Assembly (NCBI GenBank): GCA_027049035.1
Contig: JALTVI010000107.1
Span: 73,824 to 137,823 of the forward strand
DNA: 64,000 nucleotides
Reading direction: 5' to 3'
Origin: Sulfurovum sp.
GTDB lineage: Bacteria > Campylobacterota > Campylobacteria > Campylobacterales > Sulfurovaceae
A program made the position numbers and the translations under genes. Of this stretch, positions 48,314-50,680 are shown piece by piece (position 1 is the stretch's first letter; each line of letters starts with the position of its first letter). A model generated the notes under the pieces. The model was not told the origin of the DNA. It saw nothing but the letters and a program-made list of their open reading frames with translations, and did not search any database.

Positions 48314-48613
48314 ATGGAAACCCAAAAGTGTACGACACTCGAAGAGGCACGAAAAAAGATCGATGAGGTGGATGAAGAGATCATCAAACTGATTGCCAAA
48401 CGTAACGACTATATCAAGCAGATCGCACACTTCAAGACGAGTGTAGATGAGGTAAAAGCTGAAGAGCGTATCAACGATGTCATCTCCCGTGCCAGAGAGC
48501 AGGCTATTGCTCTTGGACTCTCCCCAAATCTCATCAATGATCTCTACGTACGCATGATCGATGCAATGGTAGAGAGCGAGATTGCGGAGTTCAACAACGC
48601 AAAGAGCTTTTAG
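48314..48613 (+). CDS. Chorismate mutase (AroQ type)
   Basis: 99 residues of helix. EEARKKIDEVDEEIIKLIAKRNDYIKQIAHFK is the AroQ start with the Arg and Lys of the active site, and RINDVISRAREQAIALGL and LYVRMIDAMVESEIAEF complete the fold. It turns chorismate into prephenate for Phe and Tyr. The stop overlaps the stop of the opposite lipoprotein gene. Confidence 0.9.
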   Translation: METQKCTTLEEARKKIDEVDEEIIKLIAKRNDYIKQIAHFKTSVDEVKAEERINDVISRAREQAIALGLSPNLINDLYVRMIDAMVESEIAEFNNAKSF

Positions 48614-48783
48614 TCCTGTTCCTCTTCATCATCTCCGACAACCGCATGTGCAGTACTGCCGGCAAGACCGATGGTGGTACCCACTACCGTGCCGGCAGCA
48701 GAGAGAGGTGCGGTAACTACTTGAGTGCACCCGCCAAGCAGCAGGATCGAGATAAAAAAGAGAGACAGTATAGTTGTTTTCAT
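48610..48783 (-). CDS. Tiny lipoprotein, unknown
   Basis: 57 residues. MKTTILSLFFISILLLGGC is a lipoprotein signal with Cys19, followed by a Gly/Ala/Val-rich stretch (TVVGTTIGLAGSTAHAVVG) that could insert in or lie on a membrane, and an acidic tail DDEEEQD. It resembles many small NF038104-type lipoproteins of this phylum; function unknown. Confidence 0.65.
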   Translation of the reverse strand: MKTTILSLFFISILLLGGCTQVVTAPLSAAGTVVGTTIGLAGSTAHAVVGDDEEEQD

Positions 48784-48870: not shown

Positions 48871-49524
48871 GTGAAGATACTGCTGCTTGAAGATGATGTG
48901 ATTTTGCAGGAGATCATCGAAGAGTTTCTGCAGGAGTGCGGTCATGAGGTGGTAAGCTTCTATGACGGTGAGAAGGCACTCGATGCTATTGGTGAGGAGC
49001 GTTTTGACCTGCTGCTGCTCGATGTGAATGTACCAAGCATAGACGGATTTGAAATTCTTGCCTATCTACGGGATATCGGCAATACCACGCCGGCCATCTA
49101 CATTACCTCTCTTGCAGGTATTGAAGACCTCAAAAAAGGGTTCGCACTCGGAGCGGACGACTACCTCAAAAAGCCGTTCGATCTTGAAGAGCTTCAGGTG
49201 CGTATTGAACATATTGCCAAGGCAAATTTCCTACAGGAAGAGATTGAGATTGACGGTATAAAGTTTATCCCCAGAGCACATCAGCTTATTGTCGGCGGCA
49301 GAACCATTGAAATGCGTCAAAAAGAGGCGCAGGTACTCGAGTACTTCATCCGTAACCAAGGCAAGATCATCTCCTGTGACGAGATCATCGAGAATATCTG
49401 GGAAGATGAGAATATTCCTACACACGCGACGATACGCACCTATATCAAAAACTTAAGAAGAATGTTCGACAAGCCCTATTTCGAAAATATCAAAGGAGAG
49501 GGATATCGTTTTAACATCGTATGA
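48871..49524 (+). CDS. OmpR-family response regulator
   Basis: 217 residues. Receiver (LLLEDDVIL, Asp in LLLLDVNVP, Lys in YLKKPFD) and a C-terminal winged helix (RTIEMRQKEAQVLEYFIRNQG, HATIRTYIKNLRRMFD, GEGYRFNIV). It begins at GTG 48871 behind AAAGGAT. It pairs with the kinase gene that overlaps its 3' end. The target genes are unknown. Confidence 0.92.
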   Translation: MKILLLEDDVILQEIIEEFLQECGHEVVSFYDGEKALDAIGEERFDLLLLDVNVPSIDGFEILAYLRDIGNTTPAIYITSLAGIEDLKKGFALGADDYLKKPFDLEELQVRIEHIAKANFLQEEIEIDGIKFIPRAHQLIVGGRTIEMRQKEAQVLEYFIRNQGKIISCDEIIENIWEDENIPTHATIRTYIKNLRRMFDKPYFENIKGEGYRFNIV

Positions 49525-50680
49525 ACGCCGGTCGCTCTTCCGCTTTCTGGCACTCTATCTGGTTTCGGTATTCGTACTGCTGGCGATCATCGGGTATCTC
49601 TTTTTTGAAAACAACCGCACGGCGATGAAGAGTGCGATGAAGTTCGAGATGATGTATCAGGGGCGGATGCTCTCTTCCAAGATCGTGATGAAGGCGATGC
49701 AGGAGAAGGGGATGGATGAGGCCGATGCGGTCAATTTCCTCGCCTCATTGAAGCACTGCCGTTTCGATGTGGGTTACTACGACAAAGAGGGGGATGCGCT
49801 CTATACGGAGATAGACGACGTTCCGAAGTTCAATAAAGAGTTTTATATCGACAACGGATGCTGCTATACGGTACTGGAGGACAGAAGCGACCATCTTGGG
49901 GTACATTACGTGGTGCTTAAAGAGAATGAGCTTATGGAGAGCTTCAAGCAGCTTCGGCTGAAGATCATCGGCTATCTGCTGCTCTCCTTTTTGCTGATGG
50001 GGGTGGTGGGCTACTTTCTGGGCAGGCTCTTTTTGCAGCCGGTGCGTGAGCAGATCGAGTCGCTGGACCAGTTCATCTCCGATACGACCCATGAACTCAA
50101 CACGCCCATATCAGCGATTTTGATGACGATCCGATCGCTCAAGGGGTGTGATGAGAAGAAGATGAAACGCCTTGAGGCAAGTGCCAAGCGCCTGCATGTA
50201 ATGTACAGTTCGCTTACCTACCGTCTTGAGGGCAAAGAGGAAGAGGTGGAGCGGTTTGACTTTGCGGAAGTGGTCGAGGAGAGGGTGGGGTACATCAAAG
50301 AGCTGATCGACTCCAAGAAGCTGAAGTTGTCAGTGACACTGGAGCCCACAGAGGTGGAGATGTCGCGCAGTTCGGCCGAGCGGCTCATCGACAACCTCCT
50401 CTCCAATGCCGTCAAGTACAGCGATGTGGGTGACAGTATCGATGTGACGCTCAAAGAGCGTGTGCTTAAGGTGGCCGATACGGGAATAGGGATCGCCAAG
50501 AAAGATCAGGAGGATATCTTCAAGCGCTACAAGCGTGCCAACAGCGAGCGCGGCGGATTCGGGATAGGGCTGAATATCGTGCTGGGGATCTGCAGGCAGT
50601 ACCGTATCAAGCTTGACCTCGATTCGGAAGTAGGGGAGGGCACCACCTTTACGCTTTGGTTCCCGCCTTTAAAGTCCTAA
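49505..50680 (+). CDS. Sensor histidine kinase with no standard start codon
   Basis: The kinase has a first membrane helix encoded from about 49535 (FLALYLVSVFVLLAIIGYLF), a short periplasmic part with paired Cys (NGCCYTV), TM2 (LLLSFLLMGVVGYFLG), HisKA with His in TTHELNTPISAIL, and an ATPase with NLLSNAVKY and GFGIGLNIVLG. No ATG, GTG or TTG occurs in this frame between the stop at 49454 and ATG 49625, which would lose TM1. AAAGGAGAGG (49492-49501) sits six bases before ATC 49505, so I place the start there, tentatively. It pairs with the regulator upstream. Confidence 0.8.
   Translation: MVLTSYERRSLFRFLALYLVSVFVLLAIIGYLFFENNRTAMKSAMKFEMMYQGRMLSSKIVMKAMQEKGMDEADAVNFLASLKHCRFDVGYYDKEGDALYTEIDDVPKFNKEFYIDNGCCYTVLEDRSDHLGVHYVVLKENELMESFKQLRLKIIGYLLLSFLLMGVVGYFLGRLFLQPVREQIESLDQFISDTTHELNTPISAILMTIRSLKGCDEKKMKRLEASAKRLHVMYSSLTYRLEGKEEEVERFDFAEVVEERVGYIKELIDSKKLKLSVTLEPTEVEMSRSSAERLIDNLLSNAVKYSDVGDSIDVTLKERVLKVADTGIGIAKKDQEDIFKRYKRANSERGGFGIGLNIVLGICRQYRIKLDLDSEVGEGTTFTLWFPPLKS

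Follow-up and report, generated by a model that had tools for sequence, protein, structure and literature searches.

The window, the whole analysed stretch of 64,000 nucleotides from a deep-sea Sulfurovum, carried a response regulator (RR) gene whose end overlapped the beginning of a histidine kinase (HK) gene on the same strand (Table 1). The RR matched the Pfam families Response_reg (8.1e-26) and Trans_reg_C (1.5e-16), as a two-component regulator of the OmpR type does, and the HK matched HisKA (1.9e-6) and HATPase_c (3e-21), the domains of a two-component kinase. Among the best 25 NCBIfam families for each protein, none had its cut-off reached by either the RR or the HK. Similar to other OmpR-type RR / HisKA-HATPase_c pairs, both genes possessed the defining domains and adjoined each other; the difference lay in the start codon. 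There was only one full-length copy of the HK in the genome, and the motif YERRSLFRFLALYL flanking its first membrane helix was kept in relatives.

Table 1. Features at the RR-HK locus, in positions of the window
Feature	Position	Strand	Remark
Small predicted lipoprotein (MKTTILSLFFISILLLGGC...)	48610-48783	minus	just upstream of the RR gene, on the opposite strand
OmpR-type RR gene	48871..49524	+	GTG start, 217 aa, C-terminus KGEGYRFNIV-stop
HK open frame	49457-50680	+	opens after TAA 49454-49456
Shine-Dalgarno (SD) motif AAAGGAGAGG for HK	49492..49501	+	within the RR codons for KGEG
HK gene	49505..50680	+	391 aa when translated from AUC, presumably with fMet as the first residue
Proposed HK start codon AUC	49505..49507	+	AUC/AUA/AUU at this codon in 122/143 distinct junctions, ATG in 8
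Overlap of HK start and RR end, 20 nt	49505..49524	+	two reading frames
ATGA	49521..49524	+	third-frame ATG with the RR stop; rejected as HK start
HK first membrane helix LFRFLALYLVSVFVLLAIIGYLFF	about 49535-49606	+	read from the translation; 5' of the first standard start codon
First standard start codon of the HK frame, ATG	49625..49627	+	past the first helix; rejected
HisKA phospho-acceptor domain	50063..50203	+	residues 203-249 of the frame opening at 49457
HATPase_c domain	50372..50668	+	residues 306-404 of the frame opening at 49457

As the sequence-only reading had noticed, the HK frame contained no ATG, GTG or TTG between the TAA preceding it and ATG 49625, and the first membrane helix was encoded before that ATG. 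The strong SD described six bases before ATC 49505 was found there for the core GGAG (49495-49498), which ended 6 nt before the ATC, while the full motif ended 3 nt before it. The RR stop TGA (49522-49524) did form ATGA with an ATG of the third frame. The missing start was weak evidence by itself, because all three start codons were also missing from 14% of the 56-codon stretches within the genes of the window (1680 of 12248). Among the 28 long frames in the window, two others had 65 and 90 open codons ahead of their standard start. One was a shadow frame opposite what we took to be a lipoprotein gene; the other, with a good GTG start, presumably encoded an ApbE-like protein. The missing start owes its significance to conservation in relatives.

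A match at 1e-20 was present in 57 of 60 related genomes, about thirty of which had close orthologs from the same genus. After 39 further loci from named Sulfurovum contigs were added and repeated junctions were removed, there were 49 distinct Sulfurovum junctions, with ATC at the HK start codon in 48 and ATA in one (L028). Nearly all of these junctions had the sequence AAAGGAGARGGN-ATC-GTT-TTA-ACA-TCN-TAT-GAR, with N described as lying in the codon before ATC, and with GAT in place of GTT in L019 and L028. In several Sulfurovum species (e.g., L004, L005, L007, L013, and L018), an in-frame TAA immediately preceded the SD, with no standard start beyond this stop codon. Many Sulfurovum species had a TTG upstream of the SD, which was rejected as the start since other species had a TAA between this TTG and the SD.

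The survey was extended to 398 genomes of the order Campylobacterales, of which 113 had a match at 1e-66. With 80 further stretches fetched, the tally comprised 143 distinct junctions (L006 and L069 were left out). The codon aligned to 49505 was ATC in 86, ATA in 32, ATT in four, ATG in eight, and another codon in 13; in twelve of these 13, ATG or TTG stood either one codon before the aligned position or two codons after it. In the thirteenth (L155), the HK frame broke off at a run of A close to the junction. Below, AUC, AUA, and AUU are denoted collectively as AUH. The comparison with relatives, which the sequence-only reading had called for, revealed that 113 of the 143 junctions had AUH without any other standard start in the stretch from seven codons upstream through the conserved Glu. 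These AUH-only junctions came from 22 genera and six families (GTDB groups), and a seventh family was added by an AUA without a standard start in L235, which belonged to a sample of 20 distant kinases. In 27 of the 113, an in-frame stop lay within six codons before AUH and no standard start followed it; there was no standard start all the way back to the in-frame stop in 36 of all 143 junctions. No standard start was able to give the conserved HK N-terminus, and the codon was conserved in relatives at a constant and suitable distance from the SD.

The eight relatives with ATG at exactly the AUH codon provided a telling control, and all of them had the RR motif GYVF instead of GYRF. Among the distant kinases, L236, L243, and L245 also had ATG at the AUH codon, with the RR motif GYGF or GYEF, consistent with the RR residue deciding whether AUG is possible. 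A legal TTG directly after the SD core was present in 30 of the 64 AUH-only junctions outside Sulfurovum. It was rejected as the HK start since its spacing to the core was zero and 12 relatives had the stop TAG in its place. On the Arcobacter plasmid CP146529.1, the one named record on which this annotation point was based, the HK was annotated as starting from such a TTG, which immediately followed the SD core GAGGAG, 6 nt before ATA. On the same plasmid (L285, 859-1517), the RR was annotated as two overlapping pieces and was possibly frameshifted, with the downstream HK open.

The synonymous sites of the RR gene provided another view of the 49 Sulfurovum junctions. Upstream of AUC, the wobble positions were free: Asn was AAT in 33 and AAC in 16, Ile was ATC in 24, ATT in 15, and ATA in 10, Glu was GAA in 28 and GAG in 21, and even the Gly codon just before AUC varied (GGT 36, GGA 7, GGG 4, GGC 2). 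The exceptions were the SD-forming codons AAA (49/49) and GGA (48/49), which were fixed despite synonymous codons for both residues. Downstream of AUC, Asn was AAC in 49/49 vs. a usage of 23% in the same genes, and Ile was ATC in all 44 of the Ile codons vs. 34%. Within the overlap, Arg was CGT in 47/49 vs. 36%, and Tyr and Phe were TAT and TTT in 49/49 (usage 68% and 78%). For the last two residues the test was weaker because two upstream sites were also nearly all TAT (46/48) and TTT (47/49). The change of regime, which fell after the Gly wobble base and before the codons that follow AUC, fits a putative start at AUC; taken alone, the wobble pattern would also allow a start at GUU or UUA.

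Nine of 166 loci had no RR upstream on the same strand: seven of them had the RR on the opposite strand, and L049 and L133 had an unrelated or unclear gene upstream. At these nine loci, the HK was preceded by a leader of its own, in which a TATAAT-like box could often be read by eye; the start codon was ATA in four, ATT in three, and ATC in two loci. The SD core ended exactly 6 nt before AUH in eight of the nine. In the remaining locus (L170), it was 9 nt from ATA and 6 nt from the adjoining preceding ATT. Eight of the nine loci formed one supported clade nested among the overlapping genes, and L049 was separate. According to this comparison, AUH was the predicted translation start, kept across the Campylobacterales also where the RR overlap was absent.

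A FastTree phylogeny of 162 kinases, whose long branches left some of the joins uncertain, required eight changes of the AUH label vs. 41.8 when the labels were shuffled, and three changes for ATG at the same codon. AUH therefore looks old in a large clade containing the 49505 kinase. Among 20 Sulfurovum paralogs, 14 had ATG or TTG two codons downstream, two had ATG three codons downstream, and four were without a standard start nearby. There was also a second group of paralogs, comprising L192, L200, L201, and L203 from Sulfurovum as well as L244, L246, L253, and L254, in which the RR ended with IVSIKKxGYKF or a similar sequence. Near the first helix, the only standard start in this group was a TTG that preceded the conserved Glu by 14-15 codons; further starts lay higher up in L200.

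We considered it highly probable that the HK starts at AUC 49505 with the ordinary initiator tRNA and the aid of the SD, and that AUH is an old, order-wide feature. Of the three options that had been left side by side by the sequence-only reading (an ATC start, frameshift coupling, and a sequence error), the first was strongly supported by the relatives. One genome alone could not have excluded a sequencing or assembly error. The error option fell away because 49 distinct Sulfurovum sequences, which came from many projects, had the same junction, and a start at ATG 49625 would remove the conserved first membrane helix; the chance that either applies was negligible. A programmed frameshift or termination-reinitiation from the RR, or a frameshift after a start at ATG 49521, would be in line with the 20 nt overlap and with the ATGA present in most Sulfurovum junctions, and coupling with the RR could still aid initiation at AUC. 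However, frameshifting from the RR was impossible in the nine loci that had no same-strand RR gene upstream, and thus an upstream gene in another frame was not a property of all members. Moreover, the RR wobble sites were free right up to AUC, and ATGA was missing from L066 and from most loci that had SEK instead of YER, which also removed its third-frame ATG from the candidate HK starts. Frameshift coupling was thus not needed, and we regarded it as very improbable.

A start two codons downstream, at UUA 49511, had to be argued away because 14 of the 20 paralogs started at that codon, with ATG or TTG. The codon was TTA in 107 of the 113 AUH-only junctions, but it was TTC, TTT, or CTA in the other six, and the eight relatives whose AUH site was ATG all had TTA as well. 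A Fisher test (7.7e-11) was confounded by descent because the rows starting two codons downstream were mostly separate paralog clades. The SD energy could not separate the two sites, since AUH rows scored for a UUA start had the same median of -8.6 kcal/mol. The spacing did separate them: in the eight overlap-free loci with AUH at 6 nt, the UUA site was 12 nt from the SD core. Additionally, UUA has a two-base mismatch with the initiator tRNA, and according to the accessible part of one study, IF3 accepts nothing but Watson-Crick pairing at the first two bases (PMC10158994). We therefore found a start at UUA improbable.

Accepting AUC as the start, it was a possible but less favored reading that AUH is not an adaptation and is a by-product of the overlap with the RR motif GYR, which permits only ATC or ATA. 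Namely, TAT-CGN yields ATC and TAT-AGA yields ATA, and ATG occurs only where the RR residue changes (GYVF). On the other hand, the nine overlap-free loci, representing at least two lineages, kept AUH though a single base change would give AUG, which is suggestive only. Their eight-member clade had at least three third-base changes (counted by eye) and none of them to G, which chance could explain. The persistence of AUH without the overlap may thus speak for selection, although with small counts this is only suggestive.

In the mechanism that we propose for AUC 49505, the strong SD formed by the KGEG codons of the RR, 6 nt upstream, would help the initiator tRNA to start the HK at this codon. 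The third base is the one difference between AUC and AUG. By analogy with infC, for which discrimination by IF3 against AUH-type starts is known, initiation would be slow and disfavored by IF3. Slow synthesis of the HK on an mRNA that also makes the RR would leave the HK well below the RR, and a kinase well below its regulator is a common ratio in two-component systems. AUH would thus be a translational throttle keeping the membrane kinase scarce relative to the RR, a role that we infer to be probable. The overlap would make most lineages retain AUH because AUG requires replacing the conserved RR residue (Arg/Lys) after GY, as in GYVF. It was also conceivable, but unlikely, that AUH acts as a regulated valve, with HK synthesis rising when IF3 is scarce relative to ribosomes (e.g., depending on growth rate or temperature). 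If so, a whole two-component family of the Campylobacterales would sense the state of the translation machinery in addition to a periplasmic signal.

Two further ideas about initiation were rejected. A compensation of the weak codon by SD strength had no backing, since seven phylogenetically independent pairs showed nothing significant. The median SD energies were -8.6 kcal/mol for AUH and -7.3 kcal/mol for ATG (Mann-Whitney 2.5e-4, a test that ignores descent), and the weaker SD of the ATG lineages (AAGGGG in 6/8) was a tendency unsupported by the independent pairs. An unusual initiator tRNA was the other idea: among 28 of 30 fetched tRNA loci, ARAGORN found three tRNAs with the anticodon CAU, the normal number (the genome had 41 tRNA matches, 11 of them without a locus of their own).

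Features of this kind are known. The infC gene of E. coli has an AUU start and is under translational autocontrol by IF3. Like infC, the HK family would have an AUH start under selection with weak, IF3-sensitive initiation, while autoregulation by IF3 is a feature of infC. In Sulfurovum, infC itself appeared to start with TTG (TTG AGT AGA) rather than AUU, as read in L207, L211, L212, L215, L217, L220, L221, L224, L225, and L227; 13 of 30 infC loci were readable, some of them from other genera, and an unrelated frame was picked in L218. Another parallel was sigR of Streptomyces, which in the accessible part of its report has a strong SD and a GTC start in 32 of 34 species and GTT in two, and is limited by IF3 (PMC5472188). 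Judged by that part, both cases combine a strong SD with a conserved, non-canonical start codon in a regulatory gene. The differences were that sigR encodes a sigma factor, with GTC/GTT in a single genus, whereas here a sensor kinase from 22 genera had AUC/AUA/AUU, mostly inside another gene; moreover, IF3 limitation is demonstrated for sigR and would apply to the Sulfurovum HK by analogy only. The pncA gene (BBE22) of Borrelia burgdorferi has an AUU start and is still mis-annotated in databases, according to the available part of its report (PMC13398362). To that extent it is like the HK in having an AUH start that databases mis-annotate, and unlike it in being a single enzyme from one species, with no overlap mentioned in that part.

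Bacterial genes with an AUC, AUA, or AUU start are, to our knowledge, very rare, and gene finders generally disallow such starts. Gene callers limited to ATG, GTG, and TTG are unable to report the true HK start, and these three were the start codons used in the A. butzleri genome, as stated in the available part of its paper (PMC2147049). In the open-access literature, the scope of our search as opposed to subscription journals, we recognised no report of an AUH-start kinase family in Campylobacterota, nor of an order-wide one elsewhere. The kind of feature is known from infC and sigR; what appears to be new is the gene family itself, how widely it extends, and the way it is nested in the DNA-binding motif of the RR. 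As a warning, the database N-termini of many sensor kinases may be wrong. The family represents a clean natural experiment, in which the same gene occurs with AUC, AUA, AUU, AUG, or UUG and with or without the overlap. It could be used to test whether weak starts are selected to set the kinase-to-regulator ratio, and whether the control exerted by IF3 extends beyond its own gene.
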